A stretch of 64,000 nucleotides of DNA from Bacillus sp. AFS006103 (GTDB taxonomy: Bacteria > Bacillota > Bacilli > Bacillales > Cytobacillaceae). The translations under genes were made by a program, and so were the position numbers. The notes beneath the pieces were generated by a model. It saw only the letters and a list, made by a program, of their open reading frames with translations, was not told the origin of the DNA and did not search any database. The DNA lies in NCBI GenBank assembly GCA_002559145.1, contig NTXX01000087.1:1-64000 (forward strand). The letters run 5' to 3'. How positions within the stretch are numbered: the stretch's first letter is position 1; the number at the start of each line of letters is the position of its first letter. This document shows positions 9,193-28,239 of this stretch, piece after piece.

Positions 9193-9353
9193 TTATTATT
9201 CCTCTAATTGTCATAGTTTAATAGGAGAATAGGATAGCTGAATGTTGGGAAATTCCTTTCATTGTTTAGTAAAAATTTACTATTATACTCATACTGAAAA
9301 TTGGTTTATATAACAGAAATCGACAAATTATTTAACAAATTGTGAATTTACTG

Positions 9354-9389
9354 TATAAAAAAGCCCTCCATCTTTAATTAAATGGAGGG
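9354..9389 (-). terminator. Intrinsic terminator of the undecahaem gene
   Basis: The arms CCCTCCAT and ATGGAGGG are followed on the minus strand by GCTTTTTTAT, downstream of the gene that stops at 9448. Confidence 0.85.
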
Positions 9390-9447
9390 TTAGGGTTAAC
9401 ATATCTATGTTAAATGGGAGGCCAAAGCTTATTTATTAACATCAGGT

Positions 9448-11652
9448 CTACGATGTAGGTACACTATTACTTTTATGACAGTTCTTACACTCAGCGTGCT
9501 GAGCTTCATGAATTGGTTTGGTGTGACAAGCTTGGCAAGTTTTGTCCTTATTCGCAATCGCTTTAACAACAATCGGATCCTGGCTATCATGACACCCAGC
9601 ACATTTGATATCTCTATTTTTATGCTCGGTTGTTAATGTATTACTATGACATCCAGTGCAGTTATCAGACATTTCCGTGTTAACGTGGAGTTCATCATGG
9701 GAAGCTTCACCATGGCAAGCGGAACAGGATAGATTTTTATCCTTAATCGCTTGAATTACTTTGGTATCCGTGCTTTGGTGGCAGGTGTTGCAGGTAATCG
9801 GATTACCATCTTTATCTGTTCGTTCATCCCTAGCATGTTCATGTGTCAATGACTGGGCATGACATTTGGTGCATGATTCGTCACTAGTTTTATGGAGTTC
9901 AGGGATATCGTGATTGTTGAGGATTCTGGTTGGCGTGCTTAAATATCCTTCATACCCTTTTACTTGTGAACCAGGCTGGTGGCAAACGATGCAATCATAT
10001 TGCTCACGGTTTTCTGTTATCCGTATAGGGAAATAGGGATCCATGTTTTTAGGCTGATAATGGATAGTTGGTGTTGAACCGTGTGGAGCATAACCAACCC
10101 AATCTGCATTTGGATCACCATGACATTGGCTGCATCCAGCCGGGACTGTAATATAGTTATGGCAGTTTTCACAACGATTTTTAGAATGTGTGCCTCCAAA
10201 ACTTAACTTTTTACTATGCATATCTTCTAATACACCATTGGAACCGGCAAAGCTACTTACTGGATGGCAGGTTGTACAGTTTGAGGCACCGGAGTCCTTC
10301 ATGTCTGGATAGTCATTCGTATAAAATTTCCATTCCCGGCTTACCGAAAGTCCCGTTAAATCAGAAACTGTTAGTTTAACGGTATGATAGCTTTCATTTT
10401 TCAGAGTTTCTGATGGTGTATAGGTAACTTCCCCTGTGCCTCCATCAAATTTGAAGTCTGCTGCCTTTCCATCCAGTTCTAATGTAATGGAATCAGCTTT
10501 TACCGAACCATTTGGAGATTTAACAACAGCTGAAATCGTTGGTTTTAGATTGTCGACACCGTATTTTATGGGAGTTTCATTTGAAATGACTGGCTTGGCA
10601 GACATTGTAAAACTCCAAGATCTAGTAATTTTATTTCCTAGTTTATCTTCCGTATACAATGTGAGCATGTGATTGCCATTAGGAACTGTTCCTTCAAAAT
10701 TGATATAGGCTTGTTTATAAGAGGTAATGACATAGTTCCCATAATAGTCTATAGTCCCTTTATATCTAAAATTAATGTTTAACGGGGTTCCATCTAAAGA
10801 AAGGGTTACATTGTTCTTTATGTCTACCAAATCCTTAAGTTCTCCCCTAAATTTTAAAATCCCGTCTGTAATGACAGAACCATCCTTGAAATCATAAAGG
10901 CCGACTAGGTCTGGTGCAGATGAGTCAACGGTAAAAGTCCAAGTCCGTGTACCTAAAATTCCATTCGAATCCTTTGCTTCAAGGACAGCAGTATAAGTGT
11001 TGGATGGAAAATTGTAATTGTAGGTGACCATGCGCGTATCTCGATTGACATTCAATTTCCCAGAATCAACATAAGCATTATTTAATTTAAGTTTCACCGT
11101 ATCCCAATTTACTGCATTATTGTCACTCACGAAGGCGGATAGTTGGTTTAGCGTTACTTGTTCACTCTTGTCAGCAGGACTGATTGTTTCAAACTTTGGA
11201 GGCTCAGCAACTGTAAATGACCAAGAATCGCTTAGTAGGTTCGGTGGGCTGGCTTTATCATAAATACTAACGTCAACCGTATTGATGCCATCTTTAAGAT
11301 TTGCAGTATCATAGCTAATCGTTCCTTCTCTTCTGTCCGAGATAACGTACGATCGATTTCCATAGTAGTCCGTTACCCATTTACCTTTATACAGAAAAAT
11401 GGGTGATACTTCAGTTCCGTTTAACTTCAGTTTAACTGTTGTACTGTCCAATTCAGATAAACTTTTCACATACGCAGATATTTTTGGGTTAGAAAGTGTA
11501 ATCGTGGAGTTTTTTGCGGGATAGTGGTTGGAAAAGTATGTGTCAACTGCTGATACATAGAAGGTAATCAGTATTAAAGCTATAGTACTAAGTAGGAAAA
11601 CAATTAAAAAGTATTTGCGTCTCAATTTAAAACTTCCCATATTATGAGACAT
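9448..11652 (-). CDS. Membrane-anchored or secreted undecahaem cytochrome c with Ig-like domains
   Basis: A 734-residue protein with an N-terminal hydrophobic segment (FLIVFLLSTIALILITFYV, about 15-34) that is either a signal peptide or an anchor. Three to four Ig-like domains follow (to about residue 445), ending in SWSFT/TWTFT-type motifs. The C-terminal 280 residues hold eleven CXXCH motifs: CTTCH, CENCH, CSQCH, CIVCH, CTKCH, CNTCH, CSACH, CTGCH, CAGCH, CQACH and CKNCH. The last six are closely spaced with regular LxxEH or HxELH histidines between them, suggesting bis-His haems in a compact chain. It is divergent from the RCC1 gene. No other catalytic domain is seen, so an electron-transfer role is inferred. 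Confidence 0.9.
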   Translation of the reverse strand: MSHNMGSFKLRRKYFLIVFLLSTIALILITFYVSAVDTYFSNHYPAKNSTITLSNPKISAYVKSLSELDSTTVKLKLNGTEVSPIFLYKGKWVTDYYGNRSYVISDRREGTISYDTANLKDGINTVDVSIYDKASPPNLLSDSWSFTVAEPPKFETISPADKSEQVTLNQLSAFVSDNNAVNWDTVKLKLNNAYVDSGKLNVNRDTRMVTYNYNFPSNTYTAVLEAKDSNGILGTRTWTFTVDSSAPDLVGLYDFKDGSVITDGILKFRGELKDLVDIKNNVTLSLDGTPLNINFRYKGTIDYYGNYVITSYKQAYINFEGTVPNGNHMLTLYTEDKLGNKITRSWSFTMSAKPVISNETPIKYGVDNLKPTISAVVKSPNGSVKADSITLELDGKAADFKFDGGTGEVTYTPSETLKNESYHTVKLTVSDLTGLSVSREWKFYTNDYPDMKDSGASNCTTCHPVSSFAGSNGVLEDMHSKKLSFGGTHSKNRCENCHNYITVPAGCSQCHGDPNADWVGYAPHGSTPTIHYQPKNMDPYFPIRITENREQYDCIVCHQPGSQVKGYEGYLSTPTRILNNHDIPELHKTSDESCTKCHAQSLTHEHARDERTDKDGNPITCNTCHQSTDTKVIQAIKDKNLSCSACHGEASHDELHVNTEMSDNCTGCHSNTLTTEHKNRDIKCAGCHDSQDPIVVKAIANKDKTCQACHTKPIHEAQHAECKNCHKSNSVPTS

Positions 11653-11889: not shown

Positions 11890-14880
11890 ATGAAAATTTC
11901 TAGGAGGGGTTGGATTAGAAAGCATCGCTTGTTTCATAGGGTCCGAATTATCATGCTGGCTATACTATTATTGTTAATGAGTTTTGTTTCTACTATTAGT
12001 CCGGTTAATGCATCAGGATATAACGTGGAAACTTCTCAAAAGTATGGAAAAATGATTGCAACAGGTTTAAATCATTCACTTGCTTTAAAATTAGACGGAA
12101 CTGTTGTTGCCTGGGGGAACAACTGGTATGGACAAACGGATGTCCCAACAGGTTTAAAAGATGTAGTGGCTGTCGCGGCAGGTGCATACCATTCATTGGC
12201 TCTAAAAAAGGACGGGACTGTTGTTGCTTGGGGGGATAACTGGTATGGGCAAACATACGTTCCGAGAGGTTTGAATAGCGTGGTGGCAATCGTTGCAGGC
12301 GGTTATCATTCATTGGCTTTAAAATCGGACGGAACGATTGTGGCATGGGGAGATAACTCCTATAAACAGAATAGTATCCCTGCGGGTTTGAATAACGTAG
12401 TGGCGATTTCGGCAGGTGTTTATCATTCATTGGCTTTAAAATCGGACGGGACTGTCGTTGCTTGGGGCAACAACTCGAATGGTCAAGTGAAGGTTCCTGC
12501 AGGATTGAATAACGTAGTGGCCATCTCGGCAGGCGGTTATCATTCAATGGCTTTAAAATTAGACGGGACTGTCGTTGCGTGGGGAACTAACTACGATGGG
12601 CAGACTAATATCCCCGCCGGTTTGAAAGATGTAATTGCAATTGATGGAGGTCTATACCATTCACTTGCATTGAAATCGGACGGGTCTGTCGTTGCCTGGG
12701 GAAACAATTACCAAGGGCAAACTAGGCTTCCAGTAGGTTTGAAGGACGTGACGGCAATTGTTACTGGGGGGTATCATTCATTAGCATTAAAATCGGACGG
12801 GACTGTCGTTGCTTGGGGGAACAATGCAAATGGTCAGATTAATGTCCCTCCAGGGCTAAGTTTATTGGATACCACACCACCAACAGCGAGCATTCAATAC
12901 AGTTCGGTTAACCCAACTAACCAAGATGTTGTGGCTACCTTAGTACCAAATGAACCAGTCACCGTCATAAATAATGAAGGCTCTTTAAAGTACACTTTCT
13001 CTGAAAACGGTACTTTTACATTCGAATTTAAAGATGCTGCGGGAAATCAAGGAATTGTCAAAGCTACGGTAACAAATATCGATAAAGTGGCTCCAACTAC
13101 AACTGTAAATTACAGTACAACTAGCCCGACCAATGGTAATGTTATTGCTACAATTGATCCAAATGAACCGATTACCATGACAAACAACGGCGGCTCTTTG
13201 AATTATACGTTTAGTGAAAATGGAAGCTTTACTTTCAAATTTATCGATGCTGCTGGAAATCCTGGTACAGCAGAAGCAACGATAGACAATATTGATACAA
13301 ACAATCCTACTGCAACAATAAGTTACAGTACAACCGACCCTACTAATGGTGACGTAGTTGCTACTCTTCATCCAAGTGAAGCTATTACCGTTACAAACAA
13401 CAGTGGAAATTTGGATTATACGTTTGCGAAAAATGGAAGCTTTACATTTGAATTTAAAGATTCCGCGGGGAATAAGGGAAGCACAACCGCTGAGGTAATG
13501 AATATCGACAAAGAGGTTCCGACTGCAACTGTTACCTACAGTAAATCAGACCCGACTAATGGCGATGTCATTGCTACTATTGTTCCAAATGAACATATTA
13601 CTGTAACAAACAACGGCGGCTCTTTGAACTATACATTTAATGAAAATGGTTCCTTTACTTTCAAATTTATCGATGCTGCAGGAAATCCTGGTACTGTAGA
13701 AGCAAATGTTACCAATATCGATAAAATTGCTCCAACTGCATCCATTAGCTACAGTACAACTAATCCAATTAATGGAAAGGTAATTGCCGCTATCAATCCA
13801 AGTGAAGCTATTAATGTAACTAACAATGAAGGCTCTTTGAACTATACTTTTGATGAAAATGGAACCTATACCTTTGAATTTGTGGATTCTGCAGGGAATA
13901 CTGGGAGTGCAATCGCTACAGTTACCAATATTGATAAAGTAAATCCAACAGCAACGGTTACCTACAGCTCAACTGACCCGACAACTCAAGAGGTTACCGT
14001 TTCTATAAATCCTAGTGAACAAGTAACTGTCTTAAACAATTCGGGTTCTACCTCCTATACCTTTACAAAAAATGGAACATTCATCTTCCAATTTGAGGAT
14101 ATTGCTGGTAACAAGGGATCTGTCGAGGCAACTGTATCAAATATATATATCAACGACAACCCTATCATTCAGTCCATTACAGTTCCCAACAGTCCAGTGA
14201 AAATAAACACCAACCTAAATATTAGTGCAGCTTTCAACGATGTTCAAAAAGATGATACACATACAGCATTGATTGATTGGGGAGACGGTCAAACTTCCAC
14301 TGGAACTGTCAATGAAATAAATGGTACAGGAACTGTGAGTAAAAATCATGCCTATAGTGAGCCTGGTTTGTATACTATTAAGGTAACAGTTACTGACCAA
14401 AATGGCGGGGCAGCCCAATCCACTTCACAATACATTGTGGTATATGACCCGCAGGGTGGGTATGTCACTGGTAACGGATCTTTCTATTCACCTCAGGGCA
14501 GCTATACTGCAGATCTCAATTATAATGGAAATGTTACATTTACAATTAATTCATGGTACCAAAACAAAAACTCAACAACTCCTACAGGTAATACAAACTT
14601 TCAATTTTCTATTATTAACAAGAATTTTACAAGCACATCCCTAGATTGGATGGCAATTTCCGACAATAAAGCAGAGTATAAAGGCAGCGGAAAATGGGAC
14701 AATCAATCAGGTTATGGTTTCCTTGTGACAGCAATTGACGGTGGATCAACCGACAAAATTAGAATAAAAATTTGGAACAAATCATCAGGGGCCATCATTT
14801 ATGATAATCTACCTGGCCAACCTGATACTGCTTTAGATGGGACAGTTACAAATGTCCAAGGAGACATTGATGTCCATTAA
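11890..14880 (+). CDS. Secreted RCC1-propeller / Ig-repeat / PKD protein
   Basis: A 996-residue exported protein. A long signal peptide ends near VNASG (residue 42). Seven tandem 39-residue RCC1-like repeats follow (each with YHSLALKSDGTVVAWG), enough for one seven-bladed propeller. Next come six Ig-like repeats of about 68 residues (TATISYSTTDPTNGDVVAT type), one PKD-like domain (about 760-850, ALIDWGDGQTSTG) and a C-terminal module like the post-COAP domain of other Bacillus secreted proteins. No haem motif or wall anchor is present. GAAGGGAG lies 8 bases before the ATG at 11890. It is the only plus-strand gene inside the secreted cytochrome cluster and is divergent from the undecahaem gene. 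A structural or adhesive role is possible but not shown. Confidence 0.88.
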   Translation: MKISRRGWIRKHRLFHRVRIIMLAILLLLMSFVSTISPVNASGYNVETSQKYGKMIATGLNHSLALKLDGTVVAWGNNWYGQTDVPTGLKDVVAVAAGAYHSLALKKDGTVVAWGDNWYGQTYVPRGLNSVVAIVAGGYHSLALKSDGTIVAWGDNSYKQNSIPAGLNNVVAISAGVYHSLALKSDGTVVAWGNNSNGQVKVPAGLNNVVAISAGGYHSMALKLDGTVVAWGTNYDGQTNIPAGLKDVIAIDGGLYHSLALKSDGSVVAWGNNYQGQTRLPVGLKDVTAIVTGGYHSLALKSDGTVVAWGNNANGQINVPPGLSLLDTTPPTASIQYSSVNPTNQDVVATLVPNEPVTVINNEGSLKYTFSENGTFTFEFKDAAGNQGIVKATVTNIDKVAPTTTVNYSTTSPTNGNVIATIDPNEPITMTNNGGSLNYTFSENGSFTFKFIDAAGNPGTAEATIDNIDTNNPTATISYSTTDPTNGDVVATLHPSEAITVTNNSGNLDYTFAKNGSFTFEFKDSAGNKGSTTAEVMNIDKEVPTATVTYSKSDPTNGDVIATIVPNEHITVTNNGGSLNYTFNENGSFTFKFIDAAGNPGTVEANVTNIDKIAPTASISYSTTNPINGKVIAAINPSEAINVTNNEGSLNYTFDENGTYTFEFVDSAGNTGSAIATVTNIDKVNPTATVTYSSTDPTTQEVTVSINPSEQVTVLNNSGSTSYTFTKNGTFIFQFEDIAGNKGSVEATVSNIYINDNPIIQSITVPNSPVKINTNLNISAAFNDVQKDDTHTALIDWGDGQTSTGTVNEINGTGTVSKNHAYSEPGLYTIKVTVTDQNGGAAQSTSQYIVVYDPQGGYVTGNGSFYSPQGSYTADLNYNGNVTFTINSWYQNKNSTTPTGNTNFQFSIINKNFTSTSLDWMAISDNKAEYKGSGKWDNQSGYGFLVTAIDGGSTDKIRIKIWNKSSGAIIYDNLPGQPDTALDGTVTNVQGDIDVH

Positions 14881-15086: not shown

Positions 15087-17117
15087 TTATGGACTAGTAA
15101 TAGTTACAGGGCCGTGCACGGCCTCAATAAATGAGTTATTATTACTATGACAAGCTGAGCAAACCTCTGCACTGTCCCTAGCATGGCCAGATTTAGCATT
15201 TTCATTCGTAGTATTTAATGAGACACCATTTTCATCATAAATTGCTTTTCCAGTTACACCATAAATCGATGTTTTTCCGTTGTGGCAGGTTAAGCAGAAA
15301 TCCCTCTTCTTTATGTCGGTCCAGTCCTCTACTTTAGATAAAGAAAAGTCCTGCTGGTTTTCATGACCTAGTTTATCCTTTAATAAGAATATGTTTTTTG
15401 CCCCATGTGTTTCATGACATTCCGCACAAGGTATTTGCCCATTTAGAGAATTACCATTAATTGCACTAATAATATGCTTCGAGTCACTATTGGTATAATA
15501 GCTTAATATATCTTTTGTTTTATTATTGGTTTGTTCTTGTTTCTCGCTATTATGACAGTTAAAACATAAATTATAATCTTCCACATGAGAAATTTTAGTT
15601 GTTATACCATCTTTCACTTGATCTGTAGTCGTAATTTGCCCAATAGCACTACTTTCTTTTTGATAATGAAGAACCTTGTAGGCACCAGCTTCTTCTGCTC
15701 TTTGTTTATAGGAATACGTATACCTGCCATGGCATGATTCACATAGCTGAATACTACTGTCAATCTCTCCAACTGGCTTCCCTTCCCACTCATCACTAGA
15801 TGGATGTTCGTAAACATAATGATCCTTTAATAAGTTTTGATTATCTTCACTCCACGTAAGATGTGGATTATGACAAGCTGTACATGAACCAGATTTTGTT
15901 TGATGTTCGGTAATGGCTTGGGTTTCATGCTTTGATTTAATACCTGAATCCGCATTTTCCATTTTAGGGGCCGCTGTTCCATCATGACAAGCCATGCAGT
16001 AATTTTCCGCTAAATTCTTACCTTCAAGGCTACTATTTGAACCAACATGGGTATTATGACAAATTGTACAGTTATTTACACTATTATTGTAATACCCATG
16101 TGGCTGCTTTTCTAAATTATCCATTTCCACCATCTTATAGCCATTAATAGAATAGGATTTAACAGCATTACTTACAGTTGTAAATTTTTTAATAACTGGA
16201 TAGAAGTTAAGCCCACCATCATCTAAGAGTGTTGATTCATTTGGCTGGCCAGTTGAAATTAAGCTAGTATTAAACTTTAACCAGTATGTTTCGCCCTGAT
16301 TAAGGTCATTTAATGTTAGTTCAATTATATTATTGGGAGAATCAAACTTAATGTTAGCAATCGGAACTGGTTGTTGTTGTTTGTCATAAACAATAAATGG
16401 GTTAACTATACTGTGTGAAAGTAGATCACTAAGTTCAATCTTAATTGTTTGATTTAAAGTCGCTCTAGTTATACCTTCATGCTTCAAAATATCAATATCG
16501 GCGGTAACATCTTCATCTTGATAGGACCCATCTTCTTTATATACTTTCTCCTTATATTTAAAAACACTCATCGTGATGGATTTAATATAAGGACGTTGAG
16601 CAGGAATTTCAGTTGTATTATTTGAAGCATCAGTGGCTTGGATTTTTAATTTATTAAGTTTTGTTGAAACGTCTGTTTTAAATGACCAGGAACCAGAGAT
16701 AGGAGTCAATACTTCCTCTGTTGCATCTGGATAAATTACTTTCATTACTATTGGTTGATCTACCGCCTGATTATCTGAAACAAATCCCTTTACTACCACT
16801 CCGTCACTTTGCAAAGAAATACTATTCACCGTAATAGAGGGACGAATAGTATCTGGAGCTGGTTCAGTTACTAGGGAATCGGCTGAAACGACAGGAGCTT
16901 CAACTGCAGCTCCTTCAGTTGGTATTGGGTCTGTAGCTGGTGACGGATTTTCAGTAGGAGCTAGGACTTCAGCTGGTGCAGGATCAGTAGTTGAAACTGG
17001 GTCTACAGCTGTTGCAGGATCTTCTGCTATTGCTTGAGAGGGAAGAATAATGGATACAGCAATAAATAGTAATACTATCATGATATTTAATTTTTTGAAT
17101 TTGATTTGTGCTTTCAT
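15087..17117 (-). CDS. Secreted octahaem cytochrome c
   Basis: A 676-residue exported protein. A signal peptide ends near SQAIAED (residue 33), followed by a proline/threonine/alanine-rich linker (about 34-90) that may span the wall. An Ig-like domain (about 90-175) and a Big_5-like domain (to about 335) come next. Eight CXXCH motifs follow: CTICH, CMACH, CTACH, CESCH, CFNCH, CAECH, CLTCH and CSACH. The haem region is paralogous to 6463-9192, with the same order and landmarks (YCMACHDGT, CxACHNPHL, KDHYV, ETHGAKN, YGVTGKA). AAAGGAAA precedes the ATG. The promoter region carries three phased TTCACA boxes. Extracellular electron transfer is inferred from the architecture. Confidence 0.9.
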   Translation of the reverse strand: MKAQIKFKKLNIMIVLLFIAVSIILPSQAIAEDPATAVDPVSTTDPAPAEVLAPTENPSPATDPIPTEGAAVEAPVVSADSLVTEPAPDTIRPSITVNSISLQSDGVVVKGFVSDNQAVDQPIVMKVIYPDATEEVLTPISGSWSFKTDVSTKLNKLKIQATDASNNTTEIPAQRPYIKSITMSVFKYKEKVYKEDGSYQDEDVTADIDILKHEGITRATLNQTIKIELSDLLSHSIVNPFIVYDKQQQPVPIANIKFDSPNNIIELTLNDLNQGETYWLKFNTSLISTGQPNESTLLDDGGLNFYPVIKKFTTVSNAVKSYSINGYKMVEMDNLEKQPHGYYNNSVNNCTICHNTHVGSNSSLEGKNLAENYCMACHDGTAAPKMENADSGIKSKHETQAITEHQTKSGSCTACHNPHLTWSEDNQNLLKDHYVYEHPSSDEWEGKPVGEIDSSIQLCESCHGRYTYSYKQRAEEAGAYKVLHYQKESSAIGQITTTDQVKDGITTKISHVEDYNLCFNCHNSEKQEQTNNKTKDILSYYTNSDSKHIISAINGNSLNGQIPCAECHETHGAKNIFLLKDKLGHENQQDFSLSKVEDWTDIKKRDFCLTCHNGKTSIYGVTGKAIYDENGVSLNTTNENAKSGHARDSAEVCSACHSNNNSFIEAVHGPVTITSP

Positions 17118-17443: not shown

Positions 17444-19198
17444 TTAATAATCGAACTCGATTCCGTTACGATCGTTACTTTCATTTGCAGTTGGATTGTA
17501 TTGGAATGTGTCAGTGTTTCTTGTGCCTTCAGAGTGTGAAGACGTATGACAGCCCCAACATACAGCCATGTTAGTGTAACGTTTTAAAGCAGAAGATGGG
17601 TTTTTATCTATCATGTAATCATTTGCTAATGTTGCACGTGCAGTTGAATCAGTTACAGTTGAGAAGTAATTAGGGTCAGCAATGATCTCAGATAATTTTT
17701 TACCACGAGCGTCTCTCATGACTGTTACGTCAGTACCGTGTGCATAGTGACAGCGTACGCAAGTGTAGCTATCAGATGTTGTAGTGTGACGGTATGCATG
17801 GTCAAATGTACCTTCACCCTGATTTGTTGCTGTTTGTTTAGAAGATGTTGCTAAATAGTCAGTATGACAAGCCGAACAGAAAGCAGACATTGCAGCACCA
17901 CGGCCCGAAACATATCCTGGGTTATTAGTACCGTCAGCTTTTTTGCTTGCCCATAGAGAAGATACAGTAGTTGTTGCTACGTTATTAGCATCAAAAGCTG
18001 AAACGTCTAACTTAACAACATAACCACGAGCAATATCAGCTTTAGTTAATGCATTTACAGTTGCTACTAATGATGAAGTAGATTTAACAGCTGCGAAACC
18101 ATTACCTAAAACTTCACCTTTTTTAAGTTGGTCGGTGTCGAACTTTTTAGATCCATCAGCATTTTGTAAAGTAGTCCAGTAAATCTTATTTGTATGACTT
18201 GCATCAAACTCATATCCATGTAACCATGGAGCTGTATCGATTTCATACATTGGAGTTGGTGTTACTTTATCAGCCGCTTTTTTATCTGGATTCCATTTCA
18301 TTAATTGAAGAACAATGTCTCCAGCAACTAATCCCTTTGCAGTATAGTCAGGATTAGAATTAATATTAGTTGCATCTAATGTAATTCTGTTTACTACATA
18401 GTTACTTGTTATAGGGTTACCACCTGCATCATTAAACGAAAAGTTTCCAGCTGCATTTATTGTGTTAACATCTTGGTTAGAGACAACAGGAACGTTAGTT
18501 ACTTTTTTACCACCTTGATCGAGTGTTAGGTTACCCATACCGTTTGGATCTGGACTTAATAAACGATCAGAGTAAGATCCATGCGGTGCGTGACAGCTTG
18601 CGCAAGTGAATTCTGCAGTCCAGTTATCTGTACCGTTCGTTTTTCCACCAGGAGCAGCTTTTAATTCAACTGTTCCGTTAGCTAAGTGGACTGACATGTT
18701 ACCGTCATGTGTTCCGCCGAATGTACCAGCAGAATCAGAACCAGTAAATACGTTGTAGAAGCCTAATGTACCATCATGACATGCTGTACAAGTTGCATAT
18801 TCGCCATCTTTGAACAATAAGTTCTTAGATGCACCAGTATGCGTTTGGTGACAGCTAGCACAAGAGTTAGTGTTGTTCATGTAAGATCCGTGTGTACGTT
18901 GTGTTCCGTGTGATCCGTCTGCTTTAACCATGTTGTTATCAGATTTGATAACTTGGTTGAAAGTTGAACCATCATTAGTACCTACACCAGTACCAGTTTT
19001 GTTGGCGTTGCTTTTAACAGTTCCATCATAGCTGTTATCATTTGCACCATCAGTTGTAACTACACCTGCTTGAACATCAGCAGGATCCCCTGGTGGTGTT
19101 GCAACAGGGTTACTACCTGCAGCAGAAGCCACGATGCTAAACATTGCTACTAACATTAATGTTAGCAAGAATGAAAAGCTTACTTTAATCTTACTCAT
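17444..19198 (-). CDS. Secreted hexahaem cytochrome c, OmcS-like haem pattern
   Basis: A 584-residue exported protein with signal peptide (cleavage near VASAAGS, residue 27). Six CXXCH motifs start at residues 113, 137, 199, 441, 480 and 547: CASCHQTH, CTACHDG, CASCHAPHGSY, CSACHTDY, CVRCHYAHGTD and CWGCH. About 12 further histidines could serve as distal ligands. Order and flanking residues resemble what I recall of the Geobacter filament cytochrome OmcS (hexahaem, CxxCHxPHG at haem 3, MSxxCxxCHTD at haem 4, CxxCHxAH at haem 5). Here a 235-residue insert lies between haems 3 and 4. There is no wall anchor. It is last in a tightly spaced run of five genes. The ribosome site GGGAGG is strong, and a perfect orphan Shine-Dalgarno lies about 90 bases upstream. 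A polymeric nanowire role is a hypothesis. Confidence 0.9.
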   Translation of the reverse strand: MSKIKVSFSFLLTLMLVAMFSIVASAAGSNPVATPPGDPADVQAGVVTTDGANDNSYDGTVKSNANKTGTGVGTNDGSTFNQVIKSDNNMVKADGSHGTQRTHGSYMNNTNSCASCHQTHTGASKNLLFKDGEYATCTACHDGTLGFYNVFTGSDSAGTFGGTHDGNMSVHLANGTVELKAAPGGKTNGTDNWTAEFTCASCHAPHGSYSDRLLSPDPNGMGNLTLDQGGKKVTNVPVVSNQDVNTINAAGNFSFNDAGGNPITSNYVVNRITLDATNINSNPDYTAKGLVAGDIVLQLMKWNPDKKAADKVTPTPMYEIDTAPWLHGYEFDASHTNKIYWTTLQNADGSKKFDTDQLKKGEVLGNGFAAVKSTSSLVATVNALTKADIARGYVVKLDVSAFDANNVATTTVSSLWASKKADGTNNPGYVSGRGAAMSAFCSACHTDYLATSSKQTATNQGEGTFDHAYRHTTTSDSYTCVRCHYAHGTDVTVMRDARGKKLSEIIADPNYFSTVTDSTARATLANDYMIDKNPSSALKRYTNMAVCWGCHTSSHSEGTRNTDTFQYNPTANESNDRNGIEFDY

Positions 19199-19283
19199 TC
19201 CAAAAACCTCCCATAATTCTCTCTTTTTTTCTCTCTTTTTTAATCTAAACTATGATATTAAAACATTGACCCTAATTTGAGGC

Positions 19284-19294
19284 ATCACCTCCTT
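19284..19294 (-). promoter_or_regulatory. Orphan perfect Shine-Dalgarno in the hexahaem leader (STAB-SD-like)
   Basis: AAGGAGGTGAT, an 11-base perfect match to the 16S 3' end, lies about 86 nt upstream of the hexahaem ATG, which has its own GGGAGG site. The only ATG nearby is two bases after the SD and would open an 11-codon frame. Bacillus cry3A carries such a distant SD that protects mRNA 5' ends (STAB-SD); a similar role for an abundant cytochrome is inferred. Confidence 0.5.
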
Positions 19295-19312
19295 AAATAG
19301 ATCGGTAGTTTT

Positions 19313-20278
19313 TTAATAGTAAAGTGCAACCCGTTGATTCAAGGTGTCGGTAATATATACCCGGTCGTTATCATCAACATATAAGCCATTTGGAAGATAG
19401 AATTGTTCGTTTTGGTCCCCCATTGAACCAAAGGTAAAGACTTGTTCACCTTTTTCATTAAATCCATAAATCGTGTGAGATAAGTTGTTTACGACATATA
19501 GAATACCGCGTGAGTCAACGCCTATTCCACGTGGGTTAACGAAAACTGACGAGCCTTTACCATCCTTTGAGCCGTTAATTGTACGAAGGTATTTTCCTTT
19601 TTGGTCGAAGGCTAGAATTCTTTGATTTCCAGAATCTGAGACAAAAAGTTCACCTGTTTTTTTATCTAAAGCAATCGCATTTGGGGCTTTAAATTTATCA
19701 TCCTTATTAGCACCAGTGCTAATTTCTAGCACCTTTTCGCCAGAAAGTTTAAAGACATAAACTTTGTTTTGTTGAACATCCGTCACATATAATTTTTCGT
19801 CAAAGATACGAATTCCTGCAGGTGTTTTTATTAATTTCTTTTTGTCATCAAAGTATTTTATAAATTTCCCTTTTGGATCATGTATAGAGATTTTTCCATT
19901 ATATAAATCGGCTACATAAACATTTCCTTCTTTATCCCCGGCAATCCCATAAGGAAATTTAAATTGACCTTTTCCTTCGCCCTCTTTACCAAACCTAAAT
20001 ATTGGTGTTCCAGCTGTATCAAATACTTGAACCCGCTTGTTATTGGTGTCAGAGACATATAAAAACTCGCCAATTTTTGCGATATCCATTGGTTTATCCA
20101 ATGAATTATCAAAGTCACCATAGATTAGTTGGCTAAAGGTAGGCGGAGCATCAGGGTTTACCAAATTAGGTGCTTTTTTCACAACAGATTGCATATTCAG
20201 AAAGTAAATGGCAGCAAATGCAGCAATTGTAAGAACAACTATCCCGCTCATCCACTTATAGACGGTCTTTTTCTTCAT
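19313..20278 (-). CDS. Membrane-anchored NHL-repeat beta-propeller protein
   Basis: A 321-residue protein with one N-terminal membrane segment (residues about 10-28) and an extracytoplasmic six-bladed NHL propeller (about 55-321). Blades carry the family signature: LYVSDTNNKRVQVFD, VYVADLYNGKISIHD, LYVTDVQQNKVYVFK, LFVSDSGNQRILAFD, LYVVNNLSHTIYGFN and VYITDTLNQRVALYY. Such propellers act as protein-binding scaffolds. It lies 19 bp from the TPR gene and just upstream of the hexahaem gene, so they are probably one operon. I recall an NHL gene beside omcS in Geobacter, which makes an assembly or scaffold role for the hexahaem protein plausible. No catalytic residues or haem motif are seen. Confidence 0.88.
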   Translation of the reverse strand: MKKKTVYKWMSGIVVLTIAAFAAIYFLNMQSVVKKAPNLVNPDAPPTFSQLIYGDFDNSLDKPMDIAKIGEFLYVSDTNNKRVQVFDTAGTPIFRFGKEGEGKGQFKFPYGIAGDKEGNVYVADLYNGKISIHDPKGKFIKYFDDKKKLIKTPAGIRIFDEKLYVTDVQQNKVYVFKLSGEKVLEISTGANKDDKFKAPNAIALDKKTGELFVSDSGNQRILAFDQKGKYLRTINGSKDGKGSSVFVNPRGIGVDSRGILYVVNNLSHTIYGFNEKGEQVFTFGSMGDQNEQFYLPNGLYVDDNDRVYITDTLNQRVALYY

Positions 20279-20297
20279 TGTTTTTCAACCCCTATAG

Positions 20298-21014
20298 CTA
20301 TTTTTTAGCGACTCTTTCAAGTCCTTCTAATGCTGGTTTATACAGAGGGTCGTAGCTAAGTGCGTCCTTGTAGATTTGTTCAGCATTCTTCTTGTCACCT
20401 TGATCTTCTGCGACTCTACCAACTTCATAAATAATATCAGTATTTGCTGGCATTAATTTATTTGCCTCGTTAAGAGCTTCAATAGCTTCTTTATACATTT
20501 TAAGTTTTCTATAAGACATTCCCTTCAAAAGAAAACCTTTGTAATCTTTTGGTGAGATTTCAGTTGCTTTTTGAGCCATTTTTACTGAATCATTAAGGCG
20601 ATTTTCCTTATTGTAAACAAGACCTAAGTTAAAGTAAGCGGTGAAATAATTTTTATCTAAATCAAGTGCCATTTTATATTGATCAATAGCTTCTTCATTA
20701 TCCCCGTTTAAGAAGTAGGCGTAACCAAGATCAACATGGGACTTTGGATCATTAGGCTTTGCATCAGCAACAGCTTTTGCTGAATCTAATTGCTCAGCTA
20801 AACGACTATTATCGTACTTAGACCAAAAATATTTTTGGCTGACATAATAACACGCACCAACTGAAACAACTAAAGTAAGAAGCAATATCAGAAGCGATTG
20901 CCACCATTTGAATTTCTCATTTTTCGTACCATTAGATTTCTTCTTCTTTTTTTCAGGTTCTTGTTTTGATCGTGTTTCTTGTTCTTTGTTGAGCGGTTGT
21001 TCTTGAGCTTCCAT
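20298..21014 (-). CDS. Membrane-anchored TPR protein
   Basis: A 238-residue protein. A very basic, lysine-rich N-terminus (residues 1-35) precedes one membrane segment (about 38-60, SLLILLLTLVVSVGACYYV). Four TPR units follow (about 90-235: SHVDLGYAYFLNGDNEEAIDQY, FTAYFNLGLVYNKENRLNDSV and others). The positive N-terminus predicts that the TPRs lie outside the membrane. It sits between the dodecahaem cytochrome and the NHL gene with gaps of 33 and 19 bp, so it is probably translated from the same mRNA. TPRs bind other proteins, and CcmG/NrfG-like TPRs aid haem attachment, so a maturation or assembly role is possible but unproven. TAGGAGGG precedes the ATG. Confidence 0.87.
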   Translation of the reverse strand: MEAQEQPLNKEQETRSKQEPEKKKKKSNGTKNEKFKWWQSLLILLLTLVVSVGACYYVSQKYFWSKYDNSRLAEQLDSAKAVADAKPNDPKSHVDLGYAYFLNGDNEEAIDQYKMALDLDKNYFTAYFNLGLVYNKENRLNDSVKMAQKATEISPKDYKGFLLKGMSYRKLKMYKEAIEALNEANKLMPANTDIIYEVGRVAEDQGDKKNAEQIYKDALSYDPLYKPALEGLERVAKK

Positions 21015-21047
21015 ACGAACCCTCCTAATCTAGCAAATACAAACTTC

Positions 21048-22211
21048 TTATTTTAAATGGCAGGCTGAGCATGTCCTTTTTACGTGACAGGTATAACAAA
21101 AATCAGTTACTTTTTGATTTTCAGAAAGTGTTACAGGATGCCTTTCTTTGTCGAATCCCTTATGCATTGCAGGATGACAGGATGAGCAGGCAACCATTGT
21201 GGTTTTAACCCCACCAGCTGCTTGGTAGTTATGGCAGGCTAAACATTGCTGTTTATCCTTTGATGCCTGATTACCATGTTCCATCATCCAACGATTACTG
21301 TGGCTAGCTGGACGTTTACTATGGCAATCCTTGCAAAAGGTATTATCTTTCGCATAATCATAATGATTTTTTTTCTTTTGTACATACTCTGTGTCTTTTT
21401 TAAGATAGCTAGTTAAAGTAGATACTTGGTCGTAACCTTCAACAGGTTCGGTCGACATATCCTTATGACACTGATTGCACTTTTGCAAATTCTTTGCTGC
21501 AAGTTTCCCGTGGTTCTTTGTTGCAAAGTCTGCTTTTTTATGAGTTTTCGGAATCATTCCTGTTGTGTGACAAGCAGAACATTTAGTTGTAACTTTTCGT
21601 GCTTTATGACATTCAATACAAGTATCCATATCTGGGCGAATGAATTTCGTATCCGCCATCGCTGCTTTTCCAACCTTATTGTCCCATTTGTCAAGGTCTG
21701 TTGTAAAAGTCATTTTACGATCGGCGACTTTACCATGAGCTACACCACTATGGCACTGGATACATTCAACACCTTCAGTTTTATGTTTATCATGTGGAAT
21801 GATTAGGTCCCCTGATGGTGTAACTTCACGTTTTAACACATCATGACATGATTCACATGCACTATCTTTAATTTCACCAGGCATTCGAATTGGTGCAGCA
21901 GATGTGCTCGTTGAATGGTTCCTTAATTGCTCAACTACCCCTTGAGCTTTATTTTTTGCTAAATCCTTTAACACCGGGTCGGTATGACAGCTGGTACAAT
22001 CTACTTCACTGTGTGTGGAGGCTTTCCATGTGTATACCTCCGGTTTCATTTCATGACAGGATGCGCAAAATTCTGAGCTGGATGTTGTTTCTAGCCCTAC
22101 GAAGCTGAGGCCAAAGAAGATAGCTAGAAACAACACAGTTAGAGTTACATATTTGATTAACTTATAGCGAAAACGGGGAGGGGCCGACCGCGTTTCTTGT
22201 TCTTCTTCCAT
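21048..22211 (-). CDS. Membrane-anchored dodecahaem cytochrome c (NapC/NrfH-like N-terminus)
   Basis: A 387-residue protein with one N-terminal membrane helix (about 18-40) and twelve CXXCH motifs: CASCH, CTSCH, CESCH, CIQCH, CIECH, CSACH, CNQCH, CKDCH, CLACH, CSSCH, CYTCH and CSACH. The first motif lies in FCASCHEMKPE, the NapC/NrfH-type quinol-oxidising layout with a nearby methionine. The motif ...GVECIQCHSGVAHGKVA resembles the equivalent part of the decahaem genes on either side of secA, so all three share an origin. It lies 27 bp after the decahaem gene and 33 bp before the TPR gene. It probably relays electrons from the membrane quinol oxidase module outward. CAGGAGGG gives strong initiation. 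Confidence 0.9.
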   Translation of the reverse strand: MEEEQETRSAPPRFRYKLIKYVTLTVLFLAIFFGLSFVGLETTSSSEFCASCHEMKPEVYTWKASTHSEVDCTSCHTDPVLKDLAKNKAQGVVEQLRNHSTSTSAAPIRMPGEIKDSACESCHDVLKREVTPSGDLIIPHDKHKTEGVECIQCHSGVAHGKVADRKMTFTTDLDKWDNKVGKAAMADTKFIRPDMDTCIECHKARKVTTKCSACHTTGMIPKTHKKADFATKNHGKLAAKNLQKCNQCHKDMSTEPVEGYDQVSTLTSYLKKDTEYVQKKKNHYDYAKDNTFCKDCHSKRPASHSNRWMMEHGNQASKDKQQCLACHNYQAAGGVKTTMVACSSCHPAMHKGFDKERHPVTLSENQKVTDFCYTCHVKRTCSACHLK

Positions 22212-22238
22212 AAAGCGACCCTCCTGAACAAGTATCTG

Positions 22239-23648
22239 TTATTTCTTCTTGTCAGATTTAAATCCTGTTCTGTGACAGTATTGGCAATAAACATCTGTTG
22301 GTGCTTTTACTTGTGCTGAGCCTGGTATTGGCTTTGTACGGTCATGACAAACGAAGCATTCTGATTTTTGAGTATCAGTTTTCGCTTTCGACGCGTGAGC
22401 TGTTAACCATTTGTCACTGTCGACGTGTCCTGGTGGACGGTTGCCGTGACAGGCGCTACAGAATTTATTGATTCGTGATTGGTCTTTTACGACTGTAATG
22501 TTCGGTACATATTTTGTTTTGGTTTCTTTCATCTTAAGGATTGAAATAATATCTTCTTTTGGTATTGCTCTGAACCATTTTGAATCCTGGTGACAGTTCA
22601 CGCATTTATCTAATTCTTGAATGGCTGTGCCGCCGTGATTTCCATTCCATCCTTGTACTTTATGACTCTTCGGAACTTTAACTTTTTTATGACAAGTTTC
22701 ACAAGCCATGGAAAGCTTGACGTCTTTTTGCTGTTTGCCAATTGCTTGTAAGATGATATCTTGTGTTTTTTGATCATGTTCCGCTAATGCTTCTGCTTCT
22801 GTCTTTTCACCTTCATGTGTTGCCTCAGTTGTTGCTACAGCTGCAGTTTCTGTAGTTGCTGCGGAAGAGCCTTCTTTCTTGCCTTCTTCCATTTTTTTCT
22901 CAAGTTCTTCTGGATTTGGCGGAACGCTGTAAGCAGCTTCCTTCCAAGGTTTTATGCCGTTGTTTACTTTATCGTGGCAATCAATACATGTTCCCATGTT
23001 TGGTCTTAGGTATTTCTTTTCCATTAATTTCTCGGCACTCTCTGCCGTCCATTTGCCGCGAACTTCTTCGACGTTGATCCCACGAGATGCCATTTTCGCG
23101 TGCACGACACCGGCATGGCAGGTGATACAAGGAATATCTTGTTCGATATGTCCTTTGTGATTTACTTTTAAGTCCCCGGATGCGGTTACGAGTCGGTTCT
23201 TCGAGTGACACTGCAAACAGTTTTCGTTTGAAACGGCTTCTTCTTCCGTCTGAACGATCTGTTCAGGAACACCTGTCACGTGGTAGTATACTTCTTTAAC
23301 CGATTTCATTTTATGGGTAATCATATTAGTGAACCCAGGTTTGATATGACACTGTACACATGAAATCTGATTGTGGGCACTGGCAGTAAATGTTGAATAT
23401 TCGGGTGCCATTTCGTGACAGCTTGCACAGAATGTCGGTGAGTTAGTTGCTTGCAGAACTCCATAACCTCCACCAAATACAACGATACAGCCAACAAGTG
23501 AAACGAATAACAATTTCCATCTGTTGACTGGGTTCTTCCAGTCAATCGCTCGAAACTTTCGCCATAATCCGCGAATTAGGCCAACTTTTTTTCTATCTTC
23601 TCTACTTTCGGGATCTTTATCTTTATTTTTTTTCCCCCAAATGGCCAC
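22239..23648 (-). CDS. Membrane-anchored decahaem cytochrome c (NapC/NrfH-like), copy 1
   Basis: A 469-residue protein: basic cytoplasmic N-terminus, one membrane helix (about 46-68) and ten CXXCH motifs (CASCH, CVQCH, CLQCH, CITCH, CIDCH, CETCH, CVNCH, CSACH, CFVCH, CQYCH). The first four, starting FCASCHEMAPE, follow the NapC/NrfH tetrahaem quinol dehydrogenase pattern. A low-complexity A/T/E linker (about 248-290) divides the haem domain in two. The GTG at 23648 was chosen (MAIWGKK) with AAGGGTGA upstream. It is the first gene of the five-gene operon running to the hexahaem cytochrome. It is a close paralogue of 26908-28239, which lies on the opposite side of secA in inverted orientation. 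The likely role is quinol oxidation for extracellular electron transfer (inference). Confidence 0.9.
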   Translation of the reverse strand: MAIWGKKNKDKDPESREDRKKVGLIRGLWRKFRAIDWKNPVNRWKLLFVSLVGCIVVFGGGYGVLQATNSPTFCASCHEMAPEYSTFTASAHNQISCVQCHIKPGFTNMITHKMKSVKEVYYHVTGVPEQIVQTEEEAVSNENCLQCHSKNRLVTASGDLKVNHKGHIEQDIPCITCHAGVVHAKMASRGINVEEVRGKWTAESAEKLMEKKYLRPNMGTCIDCHDKVNNGIKPWKEAAYSVPPNPEELEKKMEEGKKEGSSAATTETAAVATTEATHEGEKTEAEALAEHDQKTQDIILQAIGKQQKDVKLSMACETCHKKVKVPKSHKVQGWNGNHGGTAIQELDKCVNCHQDSKWFRAIPKEDIISILKMKETKTKYVPNITVVKDQSRINKFCSACHGNRPPGHVDSDKWLTAHASKAKTDTQKSECFVCHDRTKPIPGSAQVKAPTDVYCQYCHRTGFKSDKKK

Positions 23649-24189: not shown

Positions 24190-26703
24190 ATGATGGGGAT
24201 TTTAAATAAAGTGTTTGATCTGAACAAGCGTGAGCTGAAGCGGTTAGATAAGCTGGCCACAAAGATTGACGCATTGGCGTCGGAAACAGAAAGACTGACC
24301 GATGACCAACTGCGTGAGAAAACGGAAGAATTTAAGGCTCGCTATCAAAACGGAGAAACACTCGATGACCTACTCGTTGAAGCGTTTGCCGTTGTCCGTG
24401 AAGGCGCTCGCCGTGTGCTTGGTTTGTATCCGTATCATGTTCAGTTAATGGGCGGGATTTCTCTCCACGAAGGGAACATCTCGGAAATGAAAACGGGTGA
24501 AGGTAAAACGTTAACTGCGACCATGCCCGTTTATTTGAATGCTCTTTCCGGCAAAGGTGTCCATGTTGTTACGGTGAACGAATACCTAGCAAGCCGTGAC
24601 GCCGAAGAAATGGGTCAGTTGTATCAATTCTTAGGCTTAACAGTCGGTTTGAATTTAAATAGCATGGATAAAGAAGAAAAGCAGGCAGCTTATGCTGCTG
24701 ATATTACTTATGGAACAAATAACGAATTTGGTTTCGATTACTTGCGTGATAACATGGTCCTCTATAAGGAACAAAAAGTTCAGCGCCCACTTTTCTTTGG
24801 CGTTATTGATGAAGTTGACTCGATTTTAATTGACGAAGCCCGTACACCTTTAATTATTTCAGGCTCAGCGGCAAAGTCGGCTGTCCTTTATATTCAGGCG
24901 AATGGTTTTGTTCGTATGCTTTCAAAAGATACAGATTACACCTACGATGAAAAAACAAAGGGTGTGATGCTGACAGAAGAAGGGATCAGCAAGGCGGAAA
25001 AAGCTTTCGGGATTGATAACCTTTTTGACATGTCGCATGTTACCTTAAACCATCATATTAACCAGGCATTAAAAGCCAATGTCAGCATGCACCTCGATGT
25101 CGACTATGTCGTTCAAGAGGGTGAAATTGTGATCGTTGACCAGTTCACCGGTCGTTTAATGAAGGGGCGCCGCTACAGTGAAGGCTTGCACCAAGCGATT
25201 GAGGCAAAAGAAGGTCTCGAGGTTCAGAACGAAAGTATGACGATGGCAACGATTACGTTCCAGAACTATTTCCGTATGTATGAAAAATTAGCCGGTATGA
25301 CCGGTACGGCGAAAACGGAAGAGGAGGAATTCCGCAACATTTATAATATGAATGTTATCGTGATTCCTACGAATCGCCCGATCGTCCGTGATGACCGTGC
25401 TGATTTAATCTACTCCTCAATGGACGGCAAATTCCGTGCAGTAGTCGAGGATATCGCTGAGCGTAACCAAAAAGGACAGCCCGTACTTGTTGGTACGGTT
25501 GCGATTGAAACATCTGAGCTTATTTCTAAGTATTTATTGAAAAAAGGTATTCGCCACAATGTCTTGAACGCGAAAAACCATGAGCGTGAAGCAGAGATTA
25601 TTGCCGAAGCAGGTCACCAAGGTTCAGTTACGATTGCGACGAACATGGCCGGTCGTGGTACGGACATTAAACTTGGCGAAGGTGTCATAGAGTTGGGCGG
25701 ACTTGCTGTTATTGGTACGGAGCGCCATGAAAGCCGCCGGATTGATAACCAGCTCCGTGGACGTTCTGGACGTCAAGGGGACCCTGGTATTACACAGTTC
25801 TACTTATCAATGGAAGATGAGCTAATGCGCCGCTTCGGTTCAGATAATATGAAATCAATGATGGAACGCCTTGGTATGGATGATAATCAGCCTATTCAGA
25901 GTAAAATGGTCTCAAGAGCGGTTGAATCTGCGCAAAAACGCGTGGAGGGTAACAACTTTGATGCTCGGAAACAGCTCTTGCAATATGATGATGTTCTACG
26001 CCAACAGCGTGAGATCATTTATACCCAGCGTGATGAAGTATTAGAATCGGAAAACCTTCGTGAAATCGTTCAGAAGATGATCATGAACTCCATCGAGCGC
26101 AACGTGAATGCCCATGCATCGCGCCATGAAGATGAGGAAGAATGGAATCTACAAGCGATTGTCGATTATGTGCATGCCACTCTTTTACATGAGGGTGACA
26201 TGACAGCGGAAGATTTGAAGGACAAGGATCCAGGTGAAATTGTTGAGGCCATTTTTGCAAAAGTGAAAGAACGTTACGAGGAGAAAGAACAACTTCTTTT
26301 CCCTGAGCAAATGCGCGAATTTGAAAAGGTTGTTACGCTCCGGGCGGTTGACTCCAAGTGGATTGATCACATCGATGCAATGGACCAGCTTCGCCAAGGA
26401 ATCCATTTACGTGCATACGGACAAATCGATCCGCTTCGTGAATACCAGCATGAAGGCTTTGCGATGTTTGAGGCGATGATTCAATCAATTGAGGACGAAG
26501 CGGCCATGTATATCATGAAAGCGGAAATCCGCAATAACCTTGAGCGTCAAGAAGTAGCTAAGGGCCAAGCAGTGAATCCAAAAGAAGAAGGCGAACCCGT
26601 TAAGAAAAAGCCGAAAGTAAAGCAAATTGACGTCGGCCGTAACGATCCATGTATCTGCGGCAGCGGCAAGAAATATAAGAACTGCTGCGGGGCAGGGAAA
26701 TAA
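24190..26703 (+). CDS. secA: Preprotein translocase ATPase SecA
   Basis: SecA drives export of unfolded preproteins through SecYEG. The 837 residues match the Bacillus length (841). Visible motifs: MKTGEGKT Walker A (about 100), [15 protein letters not shown] Walker B/DEAD region (about 208), [10 protein letters not shown] and [11 protein letters not shown] helicase motifs, and the C-terminal SEC-C zinc motif ([17 protein letters not shown]). The first ATG of the pair at 24190 is used, since [10 protein letters not shown] aligns with B. subtilis MLGILNK and AAAGGAG is 10 bases upstream. In related genomes secA lies between hpf and prfB in their direction. Here it points the other way, with decahaem cytochrome genes on both sides. 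The sequence itself looks fully intact. Confidence 0.98.
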
Positions 26704-26907: not shown

Positions 26908-28239
26908 GTGGCTTTTTGGAAAAAGAAACAAGATATCGATCAAGGGCAAGTAACTGATGGGAACCATCCAGAGTCTGCCGGTAGAAATGTAAGAAAAGGT
27001 AAAAATCCAATGAAACGTTGGAGGCTGCTTGTCGTCGCTTTAACAACATTTATAGCGATACTTGGTTTTACATATGGAGCGATTAGCTATACTTCTACAC
27101 CATCTTTTTGTTCTACTTGTCATGAAATGGCACCGGAGCATGTGACCTATCAGGCTAGTGCTCACAATCAAATCAAGTGCACCCAATGTCATATTAAACC
27201 TGGTGCGAAAAATTTAGTCATACATAAAGTTGAATCACTTAAAGAGGTCTATTACCATGTAGTTGGGGCCCCAGATTCGAATGTCCCGACGGTTACCGTC
27301 TCAAACAAGAACTGCGAGCAGTGTCACTCAAGAAATCGCCTAATTACCGCGAATGGCGATTTAAAAGTCAACCATAAGGGTCATATTCAAGAAGGCATCC
27401 CTTGTATCACCTGTCATCGGGGGGTGGTTCATGCGAAGGTGGCCGAGCGAGGGATTAACGATTCATCCACTTATACTGCCTGGACCAAAGACAACGCGAA
27501 GAAGCTGATGGGTGAAAAGTACGAAAATCCAAACATGGGAACATGTATTGACTGTCACGAGCAAGTCAACCTAGGCAAAAAGCCGTGGAAGGACAAAGAC
27601 TATCTTCTGCCTAAAAATAATTATGAAAAGAAATTAGTTGAAAACGAAAATAGCGTCGACCTTCAGGAGACAGCAGAAGCACAGGCTGGTGTTCTGGAAA
27701 GGGAGCTCCCTGATAACAAACAAAAGACGATCCTTCAAGCAGTTAGCCAACAGAAAACCGATGTGAAGCTATCGATGCAATGCTTTACCTGTCATCAAAG
27801 TATCAAAACACCGAAAAATCATGATGTTAACACCTGGATAGTAAGGCATGGTGATTTTGCTGTGAAAGAGCTGGGCACCTGTTTTAACTGTCATAAGGAT
27901 TCCTTATGGATCAAAGATCTCGAAAAGCAAGATATAAGGAAGTTACTAACGGACACCAAAAAGAAAGTGACCTATAAACAAGACTTGTTGACGGTTTCTA
28001 CAGAATCCCGCAGCAATTATTTCTGCAGCATCTGTCATGCACATAGCCCGTCAAACCACAAAGAGCGGTACACGTGGTTAACCGATAGGCACAGACTAAA
28101 TTCAACAACACCCGAACAGAGGAAAAAATGTTTTGTCTGTCATGATAATGGAAAGCCAGACCCGAAAACAAGAACTGCACCTTCCGATGTTTACTGTGAC
28201 TTCTGCCATAACGGCGAGTTCAAAGCCGAACATGCCTAA
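26908..28239 (+). CDS. Membrane-anchored decahaem cytochrome c (NapC/NrfH-like), copy 2
   Basis: A 443-residue paralogue of 22239-23648 with the same plan: basic N-terminus, one membrane helix (about 36-58) and ten CXXCH motifs (CSTCH, CTQCH, CEQCH, CITCH, CIDCH, CFTCH, CFNCH, CSICH, CFVCH, CDFCH). The opening FCSTCHEMAPEH fits the quinol-oxidising NapC/NrfH type. Long near-identical stretches with copy 1 include NGDLKVNHKGHI, NPNMGTCIDCH and KKCFVCHD-like regions. The linker between halves is shorter. The start is GTG with GAGGGGG six bases upstream. It follows secA by 204 bp with its own FNR-like site and terminator, so it is separately controlled. Both copies probably feed electrons from quinol outward (inference). 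Confidence 0.9.
   Translation: MAFWKKKQDIDQGQVTDGNHPESAGRNVRKGKNPMKRWRLLVVALTTFIAILGFTYGAISYTSTPSFCSTCHEMAPEHVTYQASAHNQIKCTQCHIKPGAKNLVIHKVESLKEVYYHVVGAPDSNVPTVTVSNKNCEQCHSRNRLITANGDLKVNHKGHIQEGIPCITCHRGVVHAKVAERGINDSSTYTAWTKDNAKKLMGEKYENPNMGTCIDCHEQVNLGKKPWKDKDYLLPKNNYEKKLVENENSVDLQETAEAQAGVLERELPDNKQKTILQAVSQQKTDVKLSMQCFTCHQSIKTPKNHDVNTWIVRHGDFAVKELGTCFNCHKDSLWIKDLEKQDIRKLLTDTKKKVTYKQDLLTVSTESRSNYFCSICHAHSPSNHKERYTWLTDRHRLNSTTPEQRKKCFVCHDNGKPDPKTRTAPSDVYCDFCHNGEFKAEHA

Follow-up and report, generated by a model that had tools for sequence, protein, structure and literature searches.

An OmcS-like hexahaem cytochrome in a Gram-positive Bacillus and the exchange of its gene cassette among relatives

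How electrons cross the thick wall of a Gram-positive cell is an open question, and the literature that we found holds a single wire-like proposal, the Thermincola protein CwcA, which could not be kept soluble according to the accessible part of its report (PMC7911101). The question is raised again by a stretch of 64,000 nucleotides from Bacillus sp. AFS006103 (contig NTXX01000087.1, positions 1 to 64,000; hereafter the window), which carries on its minus strand (17,444–19,198) a gene for a secreted hexahaem cytochrome of 584 residues, here labelled HEX. We provide evidence, as good as sequence allows, that HEX is a homologue of the filament-forming cytochrome OmcS of Geobacter sulfurreducens (Protein Data Bank (PDB) entries 6EF8 and 6NEF), and that it belongs to a five-gene block exchanged between the chromosomes of close relatives. 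Our overall reading, to which we give a probability of roughly 0.6, is that the products of these genes conduct electrons out of the quinone pool and through the thick wall along a HEX wire, that the wire is part of a matched cassette exchanged as a whole, and that the adjoining 10-haem cytochrome is generic.

A preliminary description of the window had read six haem motifs in HEX and matched them to OmcS. The reading is correct, and it agrees motif by motif with the OmcS sequence, which we checked against PDB 6ef8_A. Both proteins have six haems (haem counts throughout are numbers of CxxCH motifs) whose motifs agree at every position: CxxCHxxH marks haems 1, 3 and 5, haem 3 is preceded by PGG, and haem 4 reads MSxxCxxCHTD. 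The CxxCH motifs of HEX start at residues 113, 137, 199, 441, 480 and 547. CxxCHxxH occurs solely at haems 1, 3 and 5 in all 67 six-haem relatives of HEX and in all 17 OmcS-like proteins, against a background of 175 among the 1,791 CxxCH motifs in other multihaem open reading frames (ORFs) of the loci. Additionally, twelve histidines, the number that bis-His ligation of all six haems would require (103, 117, 120, 141, 171, 203, 206, 445, 471, 484, 487 and 551) are invariant in 71 of 71 aligned rows, six of the 76 HEX-like ORFs having been excluded from this count for fewer than six CxxCH.

Searching the PDB with HEX as a single sequence did not find OmcS, the best matches being small or generic haem motifs. 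A profile built from 19 relatives placed OmcS at the top (E 5.6e-4), and one built from 58 placed it second (E 2.1e-4) after MtrA of the Mtr complex (E 8.3e-5), a match that is made via the haem motifs. As a control, OmcS was shuffled 2,000 times with CxxCH kept and 2,000 times with all histidines also kept. OmcS scored 56.0 against 44.9 and 47.5 for the best shuffle of each kind, and 23.7 against 20.8 and 23.0 with the HMMER bias correction on; no shuffle of either set reached the OmcS score, which argues for homology beyond the haem motif. Aligned with hhalign to the OmcS-like family of a phylum that includes a Candidatus Eisenbacteria bin, the HEX profile covered 264 columns and paired all six haems in order, at a probability of 99.2. 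That probability is non-specific, because an octahaem family encoded downstream of HEX also reaches 99.2, over 93 columns; we rejected it as proof of kinship with OmcS and used only the six-haem coverage, the 12-haem, 10-haem and 9-haem families aligning over 25, 108 and 83 columns, respectively. The 93 columns of the octahaem family correspond to the first three haems of HEX, and the two proteins may be related. Together, profile match, shuffle control and ordered alignment bear out the likeness to OmcS that had been proposed.

At the level of single residues, 11 of the 12 histidines coincide with OmcS histidines in one alignment, His103 standing opposite a gap, and only nine in a smaller one, where four of the six distal histidines are matched. 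The OmcS partner of His471 is ambiguous between alignments (His309, His257 or His247), and OmcS His247, kept in all 17 OmcS-like proteins, has no counterpart in HEX. HEX His120, in the first CxxCHxxH, aligns at the place of OmcS His16, which we take to be the residue lent to the neighbouring subunit.

HEX also differs from OmcS in its low identity and in the spacer between haems 3 and 4 (residues about 226–429; 17,912–18,521, minus strand), which measures 242 residues from CxxCH to CxxCH, against 99 in OmcS, and carries a beta-rich domain. The 235-residue insert noted in the preliminary description is present, but it is no peculiarity of this protein, as the spacer ranges from 60 to 319 residues in the 67 six-haem relatives. 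In a structural model of HEX, residues 211–400 form a confidently modelled beta-rich domain (block means of the predicted local distance difference test, pLDDT, 73–96); structural comparison of the model ranked OmcS first, as a weak match, and a Foldseek search with it returned nothing at E 0.001. In two loci (L078 and L081) and several same-genus genomes, the place of the single long HEX gene is taken by two or three short-spacer copies in tandem (382–417 residues). The hosts differ as well, that of HEX being Gram-positive and without an outer membrane, and OmcS forms filaments, for which HEX is a candidate.

In the reading that we prefer, HEX would take electrons at the membrane and stack end to end, with His120 of one subunit lent to haem 5 of the next, and electrons would cross the wall along the subunits. 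The alternative that survives best is that HEX, although homologous to OmcS, remains monomeric within the wall or forms nothing longer than short oligomers, and passes electrons on by collision, as OmcT and OmcJ perhaps do, while the NHL and TPR proteins encoded beside it serve secretion or folding only. Two points weigh against a wire and for such a relay: homology to OmcS does not prove polymerization, and stacking could be hindered by the spacer, which is long, variable and holds a domain of its own. However, the twelve invariant histidines include that of the first CxxCHxxH, and a histidine directed at a neighbouring subunit, should it be so directed here as it is in OmcS, would be useless to a monomer; the insolubility of CwcA, as described in the available portion of PMC7911101, also fits a relay poorly. 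We regard a monomeric relay as unlikely, though a serious contender.

The genes around HEX are arranged much as the preliminary description had stated. Five minus-strand genes lie at the positions that it gave, separated by 27, 33, 19 and 114 bp in transcription order, and their CxxCH counts (10, 12, 0, 0 and 6) and families are as claimed. The first encodes a 10-haem NapC/NrfH-like membrane cytochrome of 469 residues with a GTG start (22,239–23,648; PF03264, NapC/NirT, E 6.9e-24), and the second a 12-haem NapC-like membrane cytochrome of 387 residues (21,048–22,211; PF03264, E 4.7e-20). A membrane-anchored TPR protein of 238 residues follows (20,298–21,014; TPR_8, E 1.6e-21; hydrophobic segment near residue 40), then a membrane-anchored NHL beta-propeller of 321 residues (19,313–20,278; NHL, E 1.7e-26) and HEX itself (paired CxxCH, E 2.4e-16), with a signal-peptide-like N terminus. 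By plain hydropathy, on which all N-terminal and membrane-segment calls for these proteins and the window cytochromes are based, the NHL, TPR and NapC-like proteins have one N-terminal hydrophobic segment each.

This arrangement is conserved beyond what chance would give. Among 84,980 species genomes we found 63 loci, hosted by Neobacillus and Bacillus-labelled kin, Mesobacillus, Pseudoneobacillus, Evansella, Desulfosporosinus, Thermincola-labelled genomes and unnamed Bacillota. The 12-haem, TPR and NHL genes stand upstream of a six-haem HEX, on the same strand, in 55 of 57 loci (the exceptions being L070 and L080, the latter on a sequence that ends 2.3 kb upstream of HEX), and the 10-haem gene in 42 of 57. 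A relative of the octahaem protein lies downstream of HEX in 42 of the 57. The cluster therefore stands as proposed, but its low-coordinate edge does not, as the conserved block runs on to the octahaem gene (15,087–17,117, minus strand), whose 676-residue, secreted product has an Ig-like stretch (PF09699, PF22113 and a weak Big_5) and found no PDB match at E 0.1. Leaving its own genome aside, HEX has a match in 33 of 35 same-genus genomes and in none of 24 genomes from other families of the order. With its own genome, which holds one full-length HEX, counted, matches at E 1e-20 occur in at least 51 of 151 genomes of the family (11 of 25 genera) and at least 28 of 398 genomes of the phylum (22 of 267 genera), both tallies being lower bounds for which some candidates per genome were scored.

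Judging by their family, both NapC-like membrane proteins would take electrons from menaquinol, the 10-haem protein as a menaquinol oxidase or point of electron entry and the 12-haem protein as the injector of the wire. The octahaem protein with its Ig-like stretch may pass electrons on at the surface as the end of the chain. From their gene association, the NHL and TPR proteins, anchored in the membrane, could receive the polymer, fold it or start it, the TPR protein perhaps acting in assembly or maturation. In a second alternative, HEX and the octahaem protein form the accepting end of respiration with a soluble acceptor, for example an oxyanion of nitrogen or sulfur, and play no part in long-range transfer; this would suit the best scores of both membrane cytochromes, which are with the NapC and NrfH families, and one relative whose record title names DNRA (Bacillus sp. 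DNRA2). Yet none of the cytochromes of the cluster reaches the NrfH/NapC equivalog cut-offs of TIGR and NCBIfam, the conserved neighbourhood of the cluster shows no catalytic subunit, and with distal histidines to spare for all six haems of HEX an open catalytic haem is not expected. We consider a soluble-acceptor system improbable.

Evidence for exchange of the wire cassette comes from comparing it with its chromosomal surroundings. We kept 37 loci for this analysis, dropping those in which SecA was absent or had at most 800 residues, or in which the six-haem ORF was absent, and used secA (24,190–26,703, plus strand), in the conserved flank, as the chromosomal yardstick. The SecA of the window is 98.7–99.4% identical to those of two loci, L039 and L049. 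Between the window and L049, identity in the flank is 99.4% for SecA and 95% for the 10-haem protein; in the block it is 56% for the 12-haem protein, 44% for TPR, 52% for NHL, 43% for HEX and 33% for the octahaem protein. Over the 666 non-independent pairs of the 37 loci, the Spearman correlation with SecA identity is 0.77 for the 10-haem protein, against 0.09 for the 12-haem protein, 0.05 for HEX, −0.01 for NHL and −0.03 for TPR. Correlations with HEX identity range from 0.52 to 0.61 for the 12-haem (0.58), NHL and TPR proteins. Eight pairs share SecA identity of at least 97%, and in six of these HEX is merely 36–44% identical.

The edges of the replaced stretch can be located in the DNA. On the low side, flanks that are 92–94% identical give way near 9,380 in comparison with L039 (from 92% to 35% across 9,320–9,440) and near 6,440 in comparison with L049. 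On the other side, identity to both recovers near 22,020–22,080, within the 12-haem gene towards its 5′ end, that gene being the first of the exchanged block (from 62% to 82–98% across 21,960–22,080). Two genes within the stretch absent from L039 lie beyond the octahaem gene: one for an 11-haem protein of 734 residues with an Ig-like stretch (9,448–11,652, minus strand) and one for a secreted-looking RCC1-repeat protein of 996 residues (11,890–14,880, plus strand), which also has Ig-like and PKD-like stretches. Four further close pairs (L053/L078, L042/L054, L026/L052 and L035/L054) show the same pattern as the window, with flanks of 84–92% identity that end where the 12-haem gene starts and resume past the octahaem gene.

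The cassette of the window is nearest to the set of another lineage, and the cassette genes of L022 and L023 are 95–97% alike. In approximately unbiased (AU) tests, a clade of the window, L039 and L049 is rejected by the cassette data (p 1e-36), and one of the window, L022 and L023 by the flank data (p 1e-73); these tests are not blind, because cassette types and groups were named after inspection of the trees. Seven cassette types placed on the flank tree require 17 changes; shuffled labels require 20.4 on average and come as low in 6 of 300 shuffles. Cassette type therefore retains only a slight link to ancestry, and the number of exchanges is uncertain owing to weak branches in the flank tree (12 of 34). 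Paralogy was rejected as the cause of the mismatch. HEX occupies a single place in nine of nine further genomes (one with two tandem copies), and the variants are therefore alleles rather than paralogues.

Fast divergence of surface proteins under selection, which the raised mutation rates of Geobacter and Shewanella multihaem cytochromes reported in the accessible part of PMC12977616 would favour, is a very improbable cause of these low identities, as the membrane-anchored NHL, TPR and 12-haem proteins are also only 44–56% identical despite near-identical SecA while L022 and L023 keep their sets almost unchanged, the window set is closest to that of another lineage, the AU tests reject one history both ways, and DNA identity drops at edges. 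Incongruence and edges instead show a cassette swapped by recombination in conserved flanks. By these comparisons the unit of exchange is 12-haem–TPR–NHL–HEX–octahaem, while the 10-haem gene follows the chromosome. That five genes travel together suggests mutual contact or fit; the exchanged parts would have to match one another, whereas the generic 10-haem protein and its paralogue need no match.

Phage pressure is one candidate cause of the swapping, by analogy: the available part of PMC12977616 describes a Shewanella surface cytochrome as a phage target, and Geobacter genomes as having many cytochromes of their own, with raised mutation rates. More broadly, we give even odds to the proposal that Neobacillus and its kin make OmcS-type wires and that wire, injector, propeller, TPR protein and cap form a discrete cassette at a fixed chromosomal place, which related strains swap in the manner of capsule or flagellin types because the wires are exposed to phages, predators or partner cells and because the five parts function solely as a matched set.

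The NHL propeller deserves separate attention. An NHL gene beside omcS in Geobacter, mentioned in the preliminary description, could not be confirmed, and the part of one paper available to us lists GSU2505 as hypothetical. In the phylum that includes the Candidatus Eisenbacteria bin, OmcS-like matches occur in 17 of 47 genomes. Across 16 loci there (15 from 15 genomes, L124–L138, plus L083), an NHL gene directly precedes the OmcS-like hexahaem gene in 14 and a 9-haem gene follows it in 12. These clusters share with the window the NHL gene directly before the hexahaem gene; unlike it, none shows 12-haem and TPR partners in that order, and a 9-haem rather than an octahaem gene follows. L083 also encodes a protein with 42 CxxCH (8,021–11,326). 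Three Desulfosporosinus loci (L028, L037 and L071) carry, after a first cluster, a second set of NHL, short hexahaem (424–432 residues) and 9-haem genes, in the same order as the Eisenbacteria-type loci. As NHL stands beside an OmcS-type hexahaem gene in two phyla, we think it likely that the propeller is a dedicated working partner of the hexahaem protein. According to the accessible text of PMC10376724, Dethiobacter alkaliphilus has clusters in which genes for secreted multihaem cytochromes are accompanied by genes for NHL- and TPR-repeat proteins, a combination that resembles, by description, that of the window in another Gram-positive-type lineage, with OmcS unmentioned in that text, and the available part of PMC9769857 places NHL with outer-surface cytochrome clusters in Desulfovibrio ferrophilus.

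An OmcS-like wire in a Gram-positive cell, which the preliminary description had taken to be new or little described, was anticipated as an idea by CwcA of Thermincola ferriacetica (Tfer_0075). As far as the accessible parts of these sources go, OmcS served as the template for a model of CwcA (18% identity), whose subunits were proposed to form a stacked wire across the wall (Faustino and others 2021, PMC7911101), a 2025 review restates the proposal (PMC12203936), and a 2024 study gives four cwcA copies in one bin (PMC11748539). Like HEX, CwcA of T. ferriacetica and T. potens is described there as an OmcS-like hexahaem protein of a Gram-positive host. Genomes labelled Thermincola carry the cluster in the order 12-haem–TPR–NHL–HEX, with HEX relatives at 37–42% identity; from these relatives and their gene order, CwcA is most likely a member of the HEX family. 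The same portion of PMC7911101 calls ImdcA a decahaem protein, whereas the window gene before TPR has 12 CxxCH. After the cluster, two Thermincola-labelled loci encode a 1,223-residue 10-haem protein together with an 8- to 9-haem protein (L045, 14,845–18,513; L046, 14,807–18,475). Identification of the 8- to 9-haem protein of L045 as OcwA was dropped, as it had no PDB match at E 0.001. We found no literature on such wires or multihaem cytochromes in Neobacillus, in searches with poor coverage of subscription journals. What is new here is the spread of the cluster through Neobacillus and its evolution by block exchange, the latter undescribed in the literature that we found.

Several neighbouring genes extend this picture of the window. 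Three secreted-looking proteins (6,463–9,192, 9,448–11,652 and 15,087–17,117) combine Ig-like stretches with 8, 11 and 8 haems, respectively, a layout that may hold the haems off the wall. Beyond secA, and outside the exchanged block, lies a 10-haem NapC-like paralogue of 443 residues (26,908–28,239, plus strand; PF03264, E 7.9e-22), to which the genes in the corresponding position of L039 and L049 are closely related (93–95%). The genome, of 5.17 Mb in 90 contigs, is Neobacillus-like; by secA, its closest relatives are Neobacillus sp. OS1-33 and Bacillus sp. MM2020_1. It encodes ResB, which such bacteria need to attach c-type haem.

Culture collections include Neobacillus strains, ordinary aerobes of soil, and the question of how electrons cross the wall thus becomes testable in easy hosts. 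Cassette exchange is a natural experiment that separates the parts that must fit (injector, TPR protein, NHL propeller, wire and cap) from the 10-haem protein, which need not. Additionally, the NHL propeller, pointed to in two phyla as a partner of OmcS-type cytochromes, offers a lead for how such wires are assembled. Our findings suggest that the building of protein wires may extend to Gram-positive cells.

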